This document shows positions 7,443 through 28,776 of a DNA stretch of 64,000 nt, in pieces. Each line of letters opens with the position of its first letter. The first letter of the stretch is position 1. The stretch comes from Hydrogenimonas urashimensis (lineage in GTDB: Bacteria > Campylobacterota > Campylobacteria > Campylobacterales > Hydrogenimonadaceae). The DNA is taken from the NCBI RefSeq assembly GCF_016593255.1, contig NZ_AP023212.1, positions 496,001-560,000 of the forward strand, given 5' to 3'. The translations under genes and the position numbers were made by a program. The notes under the pieces were generated by a model, which worked only from the letters and a program-made list of their open reading frames with translations, had not been told where the DNA came from and made no database searches.

Positions 7443-8257
7443 GCGAAAAGCTGAACACCGAAACGGCCGATCTTTCGGAAACACCGAAAAAGCCCCACTG
7501 GCTGGTGCGTCTCTACCACTGGTCCAACACATGGACCGGCACGGTCGTCATCGTTTTGATGGTGATCTTTTTCATCGCCCAGGCTTTCGTCATTCCCAGC
7601 GGATCGATGAAGAACACCCTGCTCATCGGGGACCACCTCTTTGTCAAAAAATTCGCGTACGGCGTGCCGGTTCCCCATATCCCCTGGCTGGAGATACCCG
7701 TCGGATTCGACACCGACGGTGACGGCCACATCATCGCCTCCGAAGGGCCAAAACGCGGCGACATCGTCATTTTCCGCTATCCGCGCAACGAAAAGATCCA
7801 TTACGTCAAACGGTGCGTCGCCGTCGGTGGCGATATTCTCTTTCTCCATAACAAGGTTCTCTACCTTCATCCCCACGAAGGCAACGACTGGATCGCCGCC
7901 CATTACCCCAAGGAAAAGATAGTCGACTACCGGGGCATTCTGTTCGTTAAAAATCCCTACAGGGATGATTTTCCAGGCATACACAACGATCCGAAGGTGA
8001 CCGATGACGGGTATCAGCCCATCGAAATTTTCGAATTCGGCCCGATCAAGGTCGAGGAGAACCACTGGTTCATGATGGGTGACAACCGAGACCACTCCAA
8101 CGACAGCCGCTTCTGGGGCACGGTCCCTTATCGTCTCATTGTCGGAAAACCCTGGTTCATCTACTTCAGCTGGGACGAGAACTACACCATCCGCTGGGAT
8201 CGCATCGGAAGAGAGATCGACACCCTCCAACGGGAAGAACCGCGCTATGTCGAATGA
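7439..8257 (+). CDS. lepB: signal peptidase I
   Basis: LepB cleaves signal peptides from exported proteins at the inner membrane. The 272-residue protein has a transmembrane helix at about residues 34-52, then the catalytic serine in SGSMKNTLLIGD and the general-base lysine in HYVKRCVAVGGD. The conserved MMGDNRDHSNDSRFWG block is also present. The ATG at 7439 overlaps the folD stop. An extra insertion between the two catalytic boxes resembles other Campylobacterota enzymes. It overlaps the M50 protease gene by 11 nt. Confidence 0.96.
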   Translation: MSEKLNTETADLSETPKKPHWLVRLYHWSNTWTGTVVIVLMVIFFIAQAFVIPSGSMKNTLLIGDHLFVKKFAYGVPVPHIPWLEIPVGFDTDGDGHIIASEGPKRGDIVIFRYPRNEKIHYVKRCVAVGGDILFLHNKVLYLHPHEGNDWIAAHYPKEKIVDYRGILFVKNPYRDDFPGIHNDPKVTDDGYQPIEIFEFGPIKVEENHWFMMGDNRDHSNDSRFWGTVPYRLIVGKPWFIYFSWDENYTIRWDRIGREIDTLQREEPRYVE

Positions 8258-8897
8258 GGTGGAAGCAGTCAAAATCGCCGCCATCGTACTCTCACTGATG
8301 GTGGCGATCATCGGCCACGAGATCATGCACGGCTGGGTCGCCTACCGATTCGGTGATCCGACGGCCAAGGCGGCGGGTCGCCTGAGTGCCAACCCGATCG
8401 TCCATGTCGATCCCGTCGGCACCATTTTCGTTCCCCTGCTCCTTTATGTCAGCGGTGCGCCTTTTCTTTTCGGATGGGCCAAACCGGTACCGGTGAACAT
8501 CCATACGGTCATCGGCAACGGCGGGTTCAAAGCGGCGGTAGCGGTGGCGCTGGCCGGGGTGACATGGAACTTTCTTCTCGCCGGCATTTCGGCCCTGCTC
8601 TTTCCCATGTTCGAACATCCCCACTCCCTCCTGTCGGCTTTCATTGGGCTTTTTCTGATGTATTCGGTGATCTACAATGTGGTGCTCGGGGTTTTCAACC
8701 TCTGGCCCTTTCCGCCGCTTGATGGTGCCAACGCACTGCGCTATCTGGCCATGGAGTACCGCTGGAAAGCCGTCGTCGATCTGTTGAACAGAATCGAGCC
8801 GATCGGTATGATTCTGCTCATCATCGTCATCGCCACGCCGTTGTCGAACTGGTTTTTTCTGCCGGCGAGCTGGCTTATCAACCTGTTGTTGGGATAA
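8247..8897 (+). CDS. site-2-protease-type zinc metalloprotease (M50)
   Basis: The 216-residue integral membrane protein has the zinc motif HEIMH (about residues 23-27, in IIGHEIMHGWVAYRFGD). The second ligand motif is NLWPFPPLDGANAL near residue 155. The compact layout matches the small intramembrane proteases (rhomboid-independent, YwhC/Rip3 type) that have no PDZ domain. Its substrate is unknown. The start at ATG 8247 lies inside the end of lepB; an apparent longer frame starting upstream is a shadow. Confidence 0.9.
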   Translation: MSNEVEAVKIAAIVLSLMVAIIGHEIMHGWVAYRFGDPTAKAAGRLSANPIVHVDPVGTIFVPLLLYVSGAPFLFGWAKPVPVNIHTVIGNGGFKAAVAVALAGVTWNFLLAGISALLFPMFEHPHSLLSAFIGLFLMYSVIYNVVLGVFNLWPFPPLDGANALRYLAMEYRWKAVVDLLNRIEPIGMILLIIVIATPLSNWFFLPASWLINLLLG

Positions 8898-8903
8898 TTT
8901 GAA

Positions 8904-8909
8904 TATAAT
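8904..8909 (+). promoter_or_regulatory. candidate -10 box for rpiB
   Basis: TATAAT lies 35 nt before the rpiB ATG, right after the M50 gene. The -35 region is weak. It would give a leader of about 30 nt. Confidence 0.45.
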
Positions 8910-8944
8910 TTGACTTAACGATCTCAAAAATGCGAGGAGAAACG

Positions 8945-9388
8945 ATGAGATATTACGTCGGAAGCGACCATGCGGGATTCGCCGTCAAGGGACTCGTCAT
9001 CGAAATGCTGAAAAACCGGGGGCACGAAGTGACGGATATGGGGCCGGAAACCGACAATCGTGTCGACTATCCCGATTTTGCCGAAAAGGTGGCACGGGCC
9101 GTCGCTGCGGACGTCGGGAGCCGCGGCATCCTCATCTGCGGCACCGGCATCGGCATGAGCATCGCCGCCAACAAAATAGACGGCATCCGCGCGGCGCATT
9201 GCCAGGACTACTACACGGCACAGATGGCCCGTGCCCACAACGACGCCAACATTCTCTGCTTCGGCGAACGGGTCAGCGGAGCCGGTGTCATCGAAAGCAT
9301 GATCGACGCCTTCACGACGACACCTTTTGAAGGCGGACGCCACGAAGGCCGTGTCGAAAAGATTATGGCACTGCAAGCGAGAGACTGA
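8945..9388 (+). CDS. rpiB: ribose-5-phosphate isomerase B
   Basis: RpiB interconverts ribose-5-phosphate and ribulose-5-phosphate in the non-oxidative pentose phosphate pathway. The 147-residue protein shows the N-terminal YYVGSDHAGFAVK, the anion-hole loop ICGTGIGMSIAANK, the catalytic Cys-His region AHCQDYYTAQMAR, and HNDANILCFGERV. The ATG at 8945 has AGGAG about eight nt upstream and is preferred over a start 15 nt earlier. Its TGA overlaps the next ATG. Confidence 0.97.
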   Translation: MRYYVGSDHAGFAVKGLVIEMLKNRGHEVTDMGPETDNRVDYPDFAEKVARAVAADVGSRGILICGTGIGMSIAANKIDGIRAAHCQDYYTAQMARAHNDANILCFGERVSGAGVIESMIDAFTTTPFEGGRHEGRVEKIMALQARD

Positions 9389-23358: not shown

Positions 23359-23476
23359 TCGCATTCCATGAATTAATTAATGTTTGCGATCGATATTGAA
23401 AGCGTGATTATATCATGTTGTCACAATAAAATGAGATGGATTGCAATGTTTCCAGAAAATAATTGGCAGGATCGCA

Positions 23477-25498
23477 ATGACCGCTAAAAAAAACCGATTC
23501 GTACTTCTTTTTGCGAGTATCTCTTTTCTGGCACTGCTCTACAATGCCATCTTTATCTATGATCAGTTCAGGCGTATCGACAATATCCAGCTGTTCGTCT
23601 CCACACAGCAGGCGAAAATTCTCGATGCGTTTTTTGTCGCTTTCAGGACGACCTATCAGGAGAGTTTCCTGAAAAACCATATTCCACTCAATGAAGAGAA
23701 CATCAAGCTTCTGCCGGTAGTGACGACTCCCAAGATTTCCGAGAAGATTGCCGAAATCATCGCCAACAAAGCGATCGTCCGGACCGTTTCGGACCGGCCC
23801 AGGAACCCGAAAAACGCCGCCAATGAGCTGGAGCGTCGAACCCTTGATTATTTCAGAAAGCATCCGGGGCAAAAAAAGACCTACGCCACGATCAAAAGGG
23901 GGGGCGAAGAGTTTTTCTTCTTCGCCGCCCCGCTTTATATCACGAAACAGTGTCTCAAATGCCACGGAAAGCGGGAAGACGCCCCTGAGTATATCCGGAC
24001 ACACTACAACAGCGCTTATGGGTACAAAGAGGGTGATCTGCGGGGCCTCATCAGCATCTATCTCGACCAAAAAGGGCTGCATGAAAACGTGATGGGACTG
24101 GTTTACAAAAATATCTCTCTCATGCTGGTTATCACCTTTCTTTTTCTAACCGTCTTCTTTTTCCTGATGAAAAAAATCTATCTGAAAGAGGAGGAGTACA
24201 CCTCAAAACTTGAAAAAGAGGTGGAAAGACAGACACAAGCCCTCGAAAAGAAGTCTCAGGAGCTTGAATACCAGCTCTATCACGACCGTTTGACCCAACT
24301 GCCAAACCGCAACGCCCTCATCAACGACATAGCCGATCCCAACGCAAGAGCACTGATTCTGCTCAATATCGACGATTTCAAAGAGATCAACGATTTCTAC
24401 GGCCACGAAGCGGGCGACACACTGATCAAAAAACTGGCGGAGCTACTGCACGATGAGTGCCCAAGAAAGATCTGCACCCTTTACAGGATGCCCTCCGATG
24501 AATTCGCGCTTCTTCTTTACGCCGACATCAAAAAGGAGACACTCGAACGCCATATCAAGGAGCTGATTAGAAAAATCAACAATTTCGACTTCGTCATCGA
24601 CTCCAATGTCGTCCACCTGCGAATCGCCGCCGGCGCCTCTATGGAGATAGACGATCTTCTCGTTACGGCGGATATGGCGATCAAGAAGGCGAAAGCGGAG
24701 AGAGCCGACTACATTATCTACGACCCTTCGATGAATATGAGCCACTTCTACAAAAAAAATATCGAATGGGCGGAGAGACTCAAAAGCGCCCTCGAAGAGG
24801 ATCGCATCGTTCCCTATTTTCAGCCTATCGTTTCGGCCCGCGACGGCAGAGTCAAAATCTACGAATCCCTGGTGCGCCTTCTCGACGAGGATGGCACGGT
24901 CCATACCCCCTACCATTTCCTGGAAATCGCCAAGCGGACGAAATACTACCCCGAACTGACCAAAAGGATGGCTGACAAAATATTCGATATCTCCAAAAAG
25001 ATTCCCTGTGACATATCGATGAACATCTCCTATCTCGACATTATGAACAAGCAGACGATGGACTACATCATCAGGAAAGTTTCCGAGTCCGACAATGCCC
25101 ACCGCTTCCACTTCGAAATACTCGAAAGCGAAGGGATCGAACGATATGAAGATGTCTCAAGCTGCCTGAAGCGTCTTAGAAAACTCGGATGCCAGATTTC
25201 CGTCGACGATTTCGGCTCCGGCTATTCCAATTTCGACCACATTCTAAAACTCGAAGTCGACATGCTCAAAATAGACGGCTCCCTCATCAAGAACATCAAC
25301 AACGATATCGGCTCGCAGATCATCGTCGAAACGATCGTGGATTTCGCAGAAAAACTCAGGATCGAGACCTGTGCCGAATTTGTCTGTTCAAAAGAGGTTT
25401 ACGAAACCGTCAAAGATATCGGAGTCACCTACGTCCAGGGCTATTATATCGGTGAACCGAAGCCCGATATTCCAGACACCACCCATTACGAAATCTAA
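23477..25498 (+). CDS. haem-motif sensor GGDEF-EAL protein (c-di-GMP turnover)
   Basis: The 673-residue protein has a transmembrane helix (about 8-28). A periplasmic DUF3365-like domain with a c-type haem motif CLKCH at residues 159-163 follows, then a second helix (about 216-234), a short coiled coil, a GGDEF domain (about 265-425) and an EAL domain (about 430-665). The GGDEF active loop reads PSDEF, so cyclase activity is doubtful. The EAL domain keeps YESLVR (Glu463), NMSYLDIMN-type, VDDFGSGYSNF, KIDGSLI and VQGYYIGEP, so phosphodiesterase activity is likely. A periplasmic redox or gas signal through haem is inferred. The ATG at 23477 is chosen over a TTG 36 nt earlier. Confidence 0.88.
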   Translation: MTAKKNRFVLLFASISFLALLYNAIFIYDQFRRIDNIQLFVSTQQAKILDAFFVAFRTTYQESFLKNHIPLNEENIKLLPVVTTPKISEKIAEIIANKAIVRTVSDRPRNPKNAANELERRTLDYFRKHPGQKKTYATIKRGGEEFFFFAAPLYITKQCLKCHGKREDAPEYIRTHYNSAYGYKEGDLRGLISIYLDQKGLHENVMGLVYKNISLMLVITFLFLTVFFFLMKKIYLKEEEYTSKLEKEVERQTQALEKKSQELEYQLYHDRLTQLPNRNALINDIADPNARALILLNIDDFKEINDFYGHEAGDTLIKKLAELLHDECPRKICTLYRMPSDEFALLLYADIKKETLERHIKELIRKINNFDFVIDSNVVHLRIAAGASMEIDDLLVTADMAIKKAKAERADYIIYDPSMNMSHFYKKNIEWAERLKSALEEDRIVPYFQPIVSARDGRVKIYESLVRLLDEDGTVHTPYHFLEIAKRTKYYPELTKRMADKIFDISKKIPCDISMNISYLDIMNKQTMDYIIRKVSESDNAHRFHFEILESEGIERYEDVSSCLKRLRKLGCQISVDDFGSGYSNFDHILKLEVDMLKIDGSLIKNINNDIGSQIIVETIVDFAEKLRIETCAEFVCSKEVYETVKDIGVTYVQGYYIGEPKPDIPDTTHYEI

Positions 25499-25547: not shown

Positions 25548-25584
25548 CGCCTCAAGAAATCCGCCAGATGGCAAAAGGAACTCC

Positions 25585-26868
25585 ATGCTGCGCTTCGCAT
25601 CCGCTCCCTCGGCAGATATGTCCATCGACGATCTGCGCGTGGCCATTTTCAACTATATCGTTGCCAGACAGCGGGGCGAACGGTTCATTCTCCGTATCGA
25701 AGATGGCGACGATGCACGCAACAATGAGGGAAAGGAGCGGAATATACTCGAAATATTCCAGCTCTTCGGGCTTCATCCTTCCGATGTCTCCTACCAACGC
25801 GACAATCTCACGATTTATCAACATATGGCGGTCAAGCTGCTGCAAGAACGAAAGGCGTTTGCCTGTTTCTGCTCCCACGAAGAGCTCGAAGCGAAGAAGC
25901 AATTGGCCAAAGAGCAAAAGAGAGTCTACCGGTACAGCGGCCGATGCGAACGGCTCAGCGACGCGGAAGTTCTCGCCAATGAAAAACCTTTCACGGTTCG
26001 GCTTAAAAAGCCTGAGAAACCGATAACGTTCGACGATCTCGTCACGGGACACCAATCTTTCGCGCCGGATGATATCGACAGTTTCGTCATCATGCGGACG
26101 GACAAAACGCCCACCGCCAATTTCGCCTGCGCCGTCGACGATATGATTCACGACATCTCTCTTGTTATTCGGGAAGAAGAGCATTTGAGCGACACGCCCG
26201 AGCAGATACATATCAGAGAGGCGCTCGGCTATGACAAGACGGTGGCTTACGCCCATCTGCCGGCCATTCTCGGCGCATCGGGGGAAAAAGGCTTGCCGGG
26301 CGTCAGGTGGCTTTTTGAAGAGGGTTTTCTTCCGGAAGCGATCGCCAACTACCTGATTCTGCTGGGCAGCAAAACTCCGACGGAGGTCTTTACGATGGAG
26401 GAGGCGATTGGATGGTTCGACCTCGCCTCCGTCTCCAAAGAACCCGTCCGGTTTGAGATAGACAAGCTTCGTTTCCTGAACCGTGAGCATATACGGCTGG
26501 CCGATTCCAAAGAGCTCTCCCGTGCCTTCGGTTTCGCGGACTCTGCCATCGGGGAGCTGGCAAAATGCTACCTCGAAGAGGGAAGCACAATCGGGGAGAT
26601 CAAACCGAAAATCGAGGCGATCTTCGCCGACAAACCCTTCGAAGGGGAGTGGAAAAGGCAGATGACGCTGCTGCGGGATGCAATCAAAAAGGGGCCGCTC
26701 TTTGAAACTTTCGACGAACTCAGAAGCTACCTGATGGAAAGGACGTATCTTGAAGGCGAAGCTCTCTTCACACCTCTTAGACTTCTGCTGACAGGATCCG
26801 AACAGGGTCCTGACCTTCGGACGCTCTATCCCCATCTCAAATCTTATCTACAGGAGATAGTCAAATGA
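25585..26868 (+). CDS. gltX2-type glutamyl-tRNA synthetase homologue with lost catalytic motifs
   Basis: The 427-residue length and many blocks fit the class I GluRS2 of Campylobacterota: LRVAIFNYIVARQ, FILRIEDGDDARNNEGKE, KAFACFCSHEELE and SDTPEQIHIREALGYDK. The ATP-binding signatures are broken: the HIGH site reads SIDD (residues 13-16) in place of HIGN. The KMSKR loop is missing, the region reading GASGEKGLPG (230-239), and the usual RGED reads REEE. Class I synthetases need HIGH and KMSKS to make the aminoacyl adenylate, so this protein is probably not an active GluRS. GluRS2 in relatives charges tRNA-Gln for GatCAB. It is coupled to yggT (ATGA). Confidence 0.88.
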   Translation: MLRFASAPSADMSIDDLRVAIFNYIVARQRGERFILRIEDGDDARNNEGKERNILEIFQLFGLHPSDVSYQRDNLTIYQHMAVKLLQERKAFACFCSHEELEAKKQLAKEQKRVYRYSGRCERLSDAEVLANEKPFTVRLKKPEKPITFDDLVTGHQSFAPDDIDSFVIMRTDKTPTANFACAVDDMIHDISLVIREEEHLSDTPEQIHIREALGYDKTVAYAHLPAILGASGEKGLPGVRWLFEEGFLPEAIANYLILLGSKTPTEVFTMEEAIGWFDLASVSKEPVRFEIDKLRFLNREHIRLADSKELSRAFGFADSAIGELAKCYLEEGSTIGEIKPKIEAIFADKPFEGEWKRQMTLLRDAIKKGPLFETFDELRSYLMERTYLEGEALFTPLRLLLTGSEQGPDLRTLYPHLKSYLQEIVK

Positions 26869-27140
26869 TTTCCGCACTTATGTTTGCCATCGTCAATGTC
26901 ATCCATACAATCATCAACATCTACATCTGGATCGTCATCATCGCCGCACTTGTCAGCTGGGTCCGTCCCGATCCCTACAACCCGATCGTCCAGGCGCTCT
27001 ACCGTCTGACAGAGCCGGTATACGCATGGATCCGCCGCTATATTCCGACCGTGGTGGGAGGCATCGACCTGGCACCGCTGATTGTCATCATCGGCCTTCA
27101 GTTCATCGACGTTTTCCTGATGCGCCTCGTTTTCCATTGA
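26865..27140 (+). CDS. YggT-family small membrane protein
   Basis: The 91-residue protein has two transmembrane helices (about 6-28 and 66-86). The YggT signature lies between them, with SWVRPDPYNPIVQALYRLTEP followed by the basic IRRYIP. YggT proteins have been linked to osmotic tolerance and cell division; the biochemical role is unknown. The start overlaps the stop of the gltX2-like gene (ATGA), so expression is coupled. Confidence 0.9.
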   Translation: MISALMFAIVNVIHTIINIYIWIVIIAALVSWVRPDPYNPIVQALYRLTEPVYAWIRRYIPTVVGGIDLAPLIVIIGLQFIDVFLMRLVFH

Positions 27141-27144
27141 TACC

Positions 27145-28776
27145 GTGCCGATGATGTGGGGTAAAGCTCTTGTTTTCGCCTTTCTGACTCCGCTTCTGCT
27201 CCATGCGGAGATTACGCCAAAACAGCTTGAAAAAATGCCACAAAGCTACGCCAAAGATTTCTATATCTGGCGTTTTTTCGATCAGAACATTACATCGGAG
27301 GAAGCGGACCGTGCCTTCTACCAGATCCGTTCTGTCAACTGGAAGCTCATCCACCGCTATGCGAAAAAGACGAAAAAACCGGGATTTGCCATGGCAGACC
27401 GCTGTCATCGGCTTGGCTACCGGAAAATTCCTGCCAAAGAGGCGGCATGCAGTGCCATCGCCGTCACTCCCTACAAATTTTCGAAACTCAAATACGCCGA
27501 CAAGTACAGGCTCATCGCGCAGCTTTCCGAATTTCCAGAACTGCTTCGATGGATGGATATCATGGTCGCCGAAGAGCCTTTCTACGAGCTCGTGCGAAGC
27601 GACAACGATACGTTCTTCGAAGTGTTCAACCGCTGCGGACGCGATTGGCGCGAAACCTATCTCGATCATCCTCTCCCGCCGAAGCTTATAGAAAGAGTCG
27701 GTGGCGACAGGAAATTCGCACAGACTGTCAAACTGATCGTAACGGACCGGCGCCTGGAGAGACTGCAGAACTCTCTGCTTGGCATCGACTCCAAAAAATT
27801 CGACCACCAGACCACCTTCTTCCTGGCCATGAACGCGCTGCGGCACGGCCATCCCGCACTGGCGAAAATCTATCTGGCGGACGCCTACAAAAAGGCATGG
27901 TTTCGTTTCGACAAGGACAAGGTCCTCTTCTGGCTCTCGCGGATCGATCACGAAAAACCCTATCTGGAAGCGCTCGGGAAGAGTTTCGACCTCAATATCT
28001 ATACCCTCTACGCCCACGAAAAGCTCCACACCCCCTGGCCCAGGATTGTTTCACCCACCTTTGGGAAAAAGCGCTGCCGCTACGATATCCGTAACCCTTT
28101 CGCATGGCTGAAGACTCTCAAAACGATCCGTGGGAAGAAGGAGGATTTTCTCATCGATTATGGCAAACGTTTCGCCTGTCCACAGACGCTTGGCCACTAC
28201 GCTTTCGTGATGGAGAGAGCCTCCCGCTACCATACCCACTACTTTCCGATCCCCTACGAAGAGGCGTACGCAGGTCTGGATACGGATGACAAGGCGCTCA
28301 TTCTGGCGCTCGCACGGCAGGAGAGCCGATTCATCCCCTCCTCCATCTCACCCTCCTACGCGCTGGGTATGATGCAGATTATGCCCTTTCTCGTCAAATC
28401 GCTGGCGAAAGAGAGAAACGAACCTTTCGACCTGGATGCGATGTTCGACCCTGTAACCAATGTCGCATACGCCAAGACCCATCTGACATTTCTCAAGCGT
28501 TCGCTCCATCATCCGCTTTTTCTCGCCTATGCCTACAACGGCGGCATCGGATTTACAAAACGGCTGCTGACGGAGCGGGAGCTATTCAGAAAAGGTGCTT
28601 ACGAACCGTGGCTGAGTATGGAGTTGGTCTATTACGATGAAAGCAGACGATACGGCAAGAAGGTACTTGCCAACTATATCGTCTACAAAAAGGTGCTGGG
28701 AGACCCTATCGACGTTTCGTCGGTCGTTGGAACGCTAACTGAACCGAGCCGTACGGATAGATTCCGAAGTCGATAG
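27145..28776 (+). CDS. slt: soluble lytic murein transglycosylase-like protein
   Basis: The 543-residue periplasmic protein has a short signal peptide (about 1-20, ending LLHA) and a long helical superhelix region (about 25-370). The SLT domain follows (about 375-500), with catalytic Glu in LALARQESRFIPSSISPSYALGM split across ARQESRF, then GMMQIMPFLVK and YAYNGG. Slt cleaves the glycan strand and makes 1,6-anhydromuramoyl ends. The start is uncertain: GTG 27145, or ATG 27151 or 27154, none with a clear ribosome site; coupling to yggT (stop at 27140) is likely. The last 71 nt overlap the convergent lipoprotein gene. Confidence 0.92.
   Translation: MPMMWGKALVFAFLTPLLLHAEITPKQLEKMPQSYAKDFYIWRFFDQNITSEEADRAFYQIRSVNWKLIHRYAKKTKKPGFAMADRCHRLGYRKIPAKEAACSAIAVTPYKFSKLKYADKYRLIAQLSEFPELLRWMDIMVAEEPFYELVRSDNDTFFEVFNRCGRDWRETYLDHPLPPKLIERVGGDRKFAQTVKLIVTDRRLERLQNSLLGIDSKKFDHQTTFFLAMNALRHGHPALAKIYLADAYKKAWFRFDKDKVLFWLSRIDHEKPYLEALGKSFDLNIYTLYAHEKLHTPWPRIVSPTFGKKRCRYDIRNPFAWLKTLKTIRGKKEDFLIDYGKRFACPQTLGHYAFVMERASRYHTHYFPIPYEEAYAGLDTDDKALILALARQESRFIPSSISPSYALGMMQIMPFLVKSLAKERNEPFDLDAMFDPVTNVAYAKTHLTFLKRSLHHPLFLAYAYNGGIGFTKRLLTERELFRKGAYEPWLSMELVYYDESRRYGKKVLANYIVYKKVLGDPIDVSSVVGTLTEPSRTDRFRSR

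Follow-up and report, generated by a model that had tools for sequence, protein, structure and literature searches.

Loss of catalytic signatures in most GltX2 proteins of GlnRS-containing Campylobacterales, probably followed by retention under selection in a non-catalytic form

Our analysis of the window, that is, the whole 64,000-nucleotide stretch of Hydrogenimonas urashimensis DNA under study, centred on a plus-strand gene whose translation runs for 427 amino acids with 0 internal stops and an unbroken frame. It is the first gene of a gltX2-yggT-slt operon, the features of which are listed below with their positions in the window.

25585..26868, plus strand: gltX2-derived pseudo-synthetase open reading frame, 427 amino acids (translation, TIGR00464, PF00749, AF2 model)
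25621..25632, plus strand: HIGH signature site, SIDD replacing HIGN, residues 13-16 (S13-I14-D15-D16; alignment with relatives)
25864..25947, plus strand: kept zinc knuckle CxCx20Yx3C (C94, C96, Y117, C121; motif definition from PMC4381286)
26272..26301, plus strand: KMSKR loop site, GASGEKGLPG, residues 230-239, five residues deleted compared with relatives
26746..26781, plus strand: degraded anticodon motif YLEGEALFTPLR, intact form GLKGKxFFKPLR (alignment)
26852..26856, plus strand: AGGAG, probable yggT ribosome-binding site within the 3′ end of gltX2 (sequence reading)
26865..27140, plus strand: yggT (YGGT family, PF02325), downstream partner in the conserved operon
27145..28776, plus strand: slt, lytic transglycosylase (PF01464), third gene of the conserved operon

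The product of the gene upstream of gltX2 (23441 to 25498) is a Tll0287-like sensor carrying GGDEF and EAL domains. An antisense open frame, likewise of 427 amino acids, runs on the minus strand through almost the entire gltX2 gene (25552 to 26835) and is probably a by-product of codon usage.

The protein matched the GltX family profile TIGR00464 with 341.6 bits (curated cut-off of 289.95) and PF00749 with 189.6 bits, and its sequence, its operon and its position in the GltX2 tree, inside the genus clade with G009, G008, and G007, place it in the GltX2 (GluRS2) lineage. It lacks both the class I HIGH signature and the KMSKS/KMSKR loop. The translation bore out an earlier note on this DNA, which had reported SIDD, a missing KMSKR loop, RIEDGD (residues 37 to 42), and REEE (residues 196 to 199) in a well-kept, unbroken gltX2-derived gene within an intact operon. 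In intact relatives of the same genus, which are 67 to 73% identical, the same columns read FAPSPTGDMHIGNLR (HIGN), RIEDTD, RGEDH, and KMSKRD. The earlier note would have discounted the loss if close relatives carried HIGH/KMSKS and the copy resulted from an assembly error. Close relatives do carry the signatures; however, an assembly or frame artefact is ruled out by the single complete contig, the normal flanking operon, and the same losses occurring independently in dozens of genomes. Judged from its sequence, the window protein is almost certainly non-catalytic, and we infer that it has no charging activity. Because it passes the TIGR00464 cut-off, automated annotation would probably name it an active glutamate--tRNA ligase.

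The genome, a single contig of 2,297,889 bases, was searched for other gltX copies, glnS, and gatCAB, as the earlier note had suggested. It encodes three class Ic catalytic domains, namely, those of the window protein, of a canonical GltX1 (HIGG and KLSKR), and of a complete GlnRS-YqeY fusion with its own HIGH and MSKR signatures (1238.8 bits against NF011291, cut-off of 681), and GatB is encoded as well. With the complete GlnRS providing direct glutaminylation, GltX2 becomes redundant, and there is no need for GltX1 to act on tRNA-Gln; the idea that GltX1 handles both tRNAs thus gives way to the presence of GlnRS as the account of the GltX2 loss. No AsnRS reached the cut-off in this genome or in the 40 relatives searched, and from the known pathway GatCAB is therefore probably still needed to make Asn-tRNA-Asn.

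We screened 299 Campylobacterales genomes for GlnRS and obtained a match in 94, including one (G266) that is probably a contaminant. Among the 75 GlnRS-positive genomes with an evaluable GltX2, KMSKR was missing from 72, and in 58 of these HIGH was missing as well. The three intact copies (G137, G223, and G277, at loci L172, L185, and L174) all come from one genus and likely represent living intermediates. Outside these 75, GlnRS-positive genome G012 has its gltX2 split across two contigs, the N-terminal piece being devoid of HIGH, and a recognisable gltX2 is missing from 16 GlnRS-positive genomes, several of which keep yggT-slt and GatB. Where GlnRS was not detected, GltX2 was intact in 87 of 90 genomes (a few copies being only partly visible) and degenerate in three. 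These 90 copies comprise an initial 60, skewed to copies resembling that of the window, and 30 weaker-scoring ones that were added against this skew and yielded two degenerate copies (G158 and G259). The three degenerate copies come from G009 (88% complete, with KISER), G158 (480 contigs), and G259 (57% complete), and GlnRS may simply be missing from these fragmented assemblies. In a 128-row tree, in which G266 was counted as GlnRS positive, GltX2 was degenerate in 65 of 69 rows with GlnRS versus 1 of 59 rows without it (Fisher P value of 2 × 10−30). Furthermore, 14 GlnRS-positive copies had lost KMSKR with HIGH kept and 0 had lost HIGH with KMSKR kept, an asymmetry by which KMSKR seems to be the first to go.

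G266 was rejected as an exception that would combine GlnRS with an intact GltX2. Its GlnRS-like frame (contig C171, locus L226, positions 7988 to 9214) reads through 4 TAG and 11 TAA codons, with no TGA, in a bacterial assembly; 15 such read-throughs without TGA fit a ciliate-type code, in which TAA and TAG encode Gln, and the match was therefore treated as a contaminant. In a single-contig genome without GlnRS (G054, C1, positions 1540345 to 1541636, locus L261), GltX2 appears as two overlapping frames with KMSKR intact, owing to either a sequencing error or a real frameshift.

The GltX2 tree, computed without the motif columns, required 20 changes of state, 16 of them on well-supported branches, a count that is approximate since this was a quick tree with some long branches. 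As the regain of both motifs is implausible, most of these changes are presumably losses. The degenerate copies form 22 maximal clades and occur alongside intact copies in each of six families; 16 phylogenetically independent pairs included no exception to the link with GlnRS (median P value of 1 × 10−4). The same conversion appears to have happened independently in Campylobacterales, some 16 times or more.

Closer inspection of the alignment revealed what the degenerate copies lose and what they keep. The lost columns include G10, H13, G15, N16, T41, G197, D199, and K234 to R239, together with K385, G396, K397, and F400 around the anticodon motif, where K395 is down to 40%. Conversely, 64 of the 142 conserved columns, C94, C96, and C121 among them, persist in 80% or more of the degenerate copies. 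The CxC..C zinc knuckle is present in 71 of 76 degenerate copies; its spacing is altered in 31 of these. The anticodon domain is lost or the protein is shrinking in some copies (G156, G282, and G052). The AF2 model of the window protein (pLDDT of 91.6, pTM of 0.87), with a TM score of approximately 0.83 by query length against GluRS structures, predicts that the GluRS-like fold is retained.

To measure selection after the loss, which the earlier note had also suggested, a pairwise codon model was applied to sister pairs made up of two degenerate copies, and saturated ones, for example G225/G252, were left out. Omega ranged from 0.12 to 0.38 in these post-loss pairs, and omega = 1 was rejected in all of them (likelihood-ratio statistic of at least 23), so that the degenerate GltX2 genes evolve under purifying selection and are not pseudogenes; intact GltX2 pairs gave 0.03 to 0.07. 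Pooled by region, post-loss omega was 0.110 in the zinc domain, 0.126 in residues 311 to 360, and 0.132 in residues 1 to 80, and residues 361 to 432 were the loosest at 0.244. The window lineage's own pairs gave an omega of 0.12, a value that partly covers time before the loss, and post-loss selection on the window copy thus rests on the other lineages. Repeated conversion combined with continued selection suggests that the dead enzyme is still useful.

We consider it likely that GltX2 was displaced by an acquired GlnRS-YqeY, disarmed, and kept under selection as a non-catalytic pseudo-synthetase. Acquisition of the fusion would have made GltX2, the former tRNA-Gln-charging GluRS, redundant and would have ended selection for tRNA-Gln misacylation, and holding tRNA-Gln may even have turned costly. 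The KMSKR loop would then have been lost first, by deletion or replacement, and HIGH next; the anticodon-reading lysines would have been replaced, mostly by glutamate, and the remaining folded body would have been held by purifying selection for a non-aminoacylating role. A dead enzyme still holding tRNA-Gln would be a competitor of GlnRS; for this reason the charge reversal at the anticodon motif was perhaps selected for, and the pseudo-synthetase would bind tRNA-Gln weakly.

As for the retained role, we tentatively propose protein docking in the aminoacyl-tRNA machinery. GatCAB would be the leading partner, because the zinc domain of GluRS contacts GatCAB in the Thermotoga transamidosome (PMC4381286) and because GatCAB is probably still in use. 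In that glutamine transamidosome, which unites GatCAB, GluRS, and tRNA-Gln, the contacting zinc domain is the very element that the pseudo-synthetase, as read from its sequence, has kept, although tRNA-Gln charging here no longer needs the pseudo-synthetase. It is also conceivable that the displaced synthetase was repeatedly recruited to GatCAB, or to another partner, as a dedicated regulator or non-catalytic subunit, a selected Lys-to-Glu switch in the anticodon motif dropping tRNA-Gln and the partner-binding zinc module staying in place. There are counterpoints to these proposals. The pseudo-synthetase is dispensable, given the 16 GlnRS-positive genomes without a recognisable gltX2; some copies are shrinking or no longer have the anticodon domain; the zinc knuckle may be conserved for fold stability only; and degenerate GltX2 occurs without detected GlnRS in the three fragmented assemblies (G009, G158, and G259).

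The main rival explanation, which we regard as possible but clearly less likely than retention of a useful pseudo-synthetase, holds that the frame is a translated placeholder, kept for the translational coupling of yggT (and slt), with selection acting only on a foldable, soluble, and non-toxic product. The gltX2-yggT-slt operon is indeed retained wherever a degenerate locus has sufficient flanking sequence, and the ATGA overlap between gltX2 and yggT (26865 to 26868 in the window) is frequent among these loci. The near-invariant final Glu codon of gltX2, which had been considered a functional C-terminus, is better explained by the AGGAG of the yggT ribosome-binding site lying in the gltX2 3′ end. 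Loop deletions and an acidic surface drift (overall net charge of −14.7 in degenerate copies versus −5.7, with a lower pI) would also fit selection for foldability alone, and many lineages eventually lose gltX2. However, gltX2 was cleanly removed with yggT-slt kept repeatedly among the GlnRS-positive lineages, which argues that the frame is not needed for yggT. Moreover, most degenerate copies remain 395 to 425 amino acids long although a short in-frame remnant would suffice, the zinc cysteines persist even where the helix between them is trimmed, and conservation is uneven, being tight in residues 311 to 360 and loose in residues 361 to 432. In genus g16, the gap between gltX2 and yggT is often 27 to 54 bases, so that the coupling is looser, yet omega is still low.

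It is improbable that the protein acts as a regulator or chaperone that still holds tRNA-Gln or some other RNA but does not charge it. The earlier note had raised a tRNA-binding regulator or scaffold and had described the tRNA-binding parts as intact. In favour of such a role, the fold is kept, K332, K347, K355, and K424, among others, remain basic in nearly all degenerate copies, and a basic helical segment at approximately residues 311 to 360 is retained, with a net charge that becomes less negative. The description of the tRNA-binding parts as intact, however, fails at the anticodon motif GLKGKxFFKPLR, which, from GluRS structures, we take to be the anticodon-contacting site. Instead of the GltX2 pattern KxGKxxxxPLR, the window protein has LEGEALFTPLR, and its E390, E392, and T396 stand at K395, K397, and K401 of intact relatives. 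Of the 57 intact copies, 56 have Lys at position 397, which is Glu in 45 of 68 degenerate copies and acidic in 17 of the 22 degenerate clades; the lysines are thus gone, and often charge-reversed, both here and convergently elsewhere. Overall charge and pI drop as well, and Pfam Anticodon_2, above the cut-off in an intact relative, was not reported for the window copy. The loss of the anticodon lysines makes a tRNA-binding regulator less likely than either protein docking or a translated placeholder.

That the gene is a recent pseudogene, in frame by chance, is very unlikely: omega is relaxed compared with intact copies, some copies are shrinking, and several lineages eventually lost the gene, but omega near 1 was found in none of the post-loss pairs of other lineages that were tested, and the listed degenerate copies carry no internal stops with dS reaching approximately 1 within post-loss pairs. 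Least credible of all is a still-active synthetase with unusual ATP motifs, for which the predicted intact fold speaks, as does the presence in 24 of 68 degenerate copies of all four of R3, E39, Y178, and R196 (by reference to the Thermus enzyme, presumably the glutamate-site residues), but Y178 is Ala in the window copy, and the signatures, invariant in intact copies, are lost almost only alongside GlnRS, with HIGH and KMSKR both missing from 58 of the 75 GlnRS-positive copies, that of the window included.

The proposed pseudo-synthetase can be compared with several known systems. With its direct ortholog, the tRNA-Gln-specific GluRS2 (GltX2) of Campylobacterota, of the Helicobacter type, it shares the yggT-slt operon, approximately 70% identity within the genus, the fold, and the zinc knuckle; in contrast to that enzyme, the window copy is devoid of HIGH, KMSKR, and the anticodon-motif lysines and coexists with GlnRS. 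HisZ-like paralogs of class I/II synthetases do not charge tRNA and are duplicates with known partners. In them the synthetase fold is likewise kept for a non-charging role, whereas here a displaced single gene would have been repeatedly disarmed. GluQRS (YadB) is an active enzyme without an anticodon domain. It has a GluRS-like catalytic body, and some degenerate copies have a trimmed zinc motif similar to its CxCx11Yx3C (PMC4381286); however, the window protein fell far below the cut-offs of the GluQRS profiles.

The accessible text of Dasgupta and Basu (2014; PMC3927822) describes GlnRS and GluRS2 together in six epsilon-proteobacteria, with a YqeY-fused GlnRS that is suggested to derive from Deinococcus-Thermus, and finds both enzymes in Mesorhizobium as well. 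The epsilon-proteobacterial GluRS2 is described there with H-phi-G-N, and that part of the paper does not report motif loss. The gene combination is, as far as this text goes, the same as here, and the motif loss, its independence, and the selection are added by our analysis. In the open-access literature, we found no publication on GltX2 motif loss or on its selection in this group.

The surprising element is the convergence combined with continued selection; the phenomenon is real and is explained in outline. It constitutes a replicated natural experiment of about 16 or more cases in which a translation enzyme, displaced by an acquired rival, was disarmed and not deleted. It also offers a likely order of events, from GlnRS acquisition to KMSKR loss and then HIGH loss, and a route to finding roles of synthetases besides tRNA charging.

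The position of glnS relative to the degenerate gltX2 varies. The two genes lie approximately 1 Mb apart in the window's genome. In family f20 (at L186, L188, L154, L143, and further loci), the degenerate gltX2 is immediately preceded by glnS, the two genes overlapping or being separated by a few bases, and in family f16 (L175, L183, L184, and L191) glnS is divergent and adjoins the degenerate gltX2. The neighbourhoods in these two families indicate that GlnRS often adjoins the gene that it replaced.
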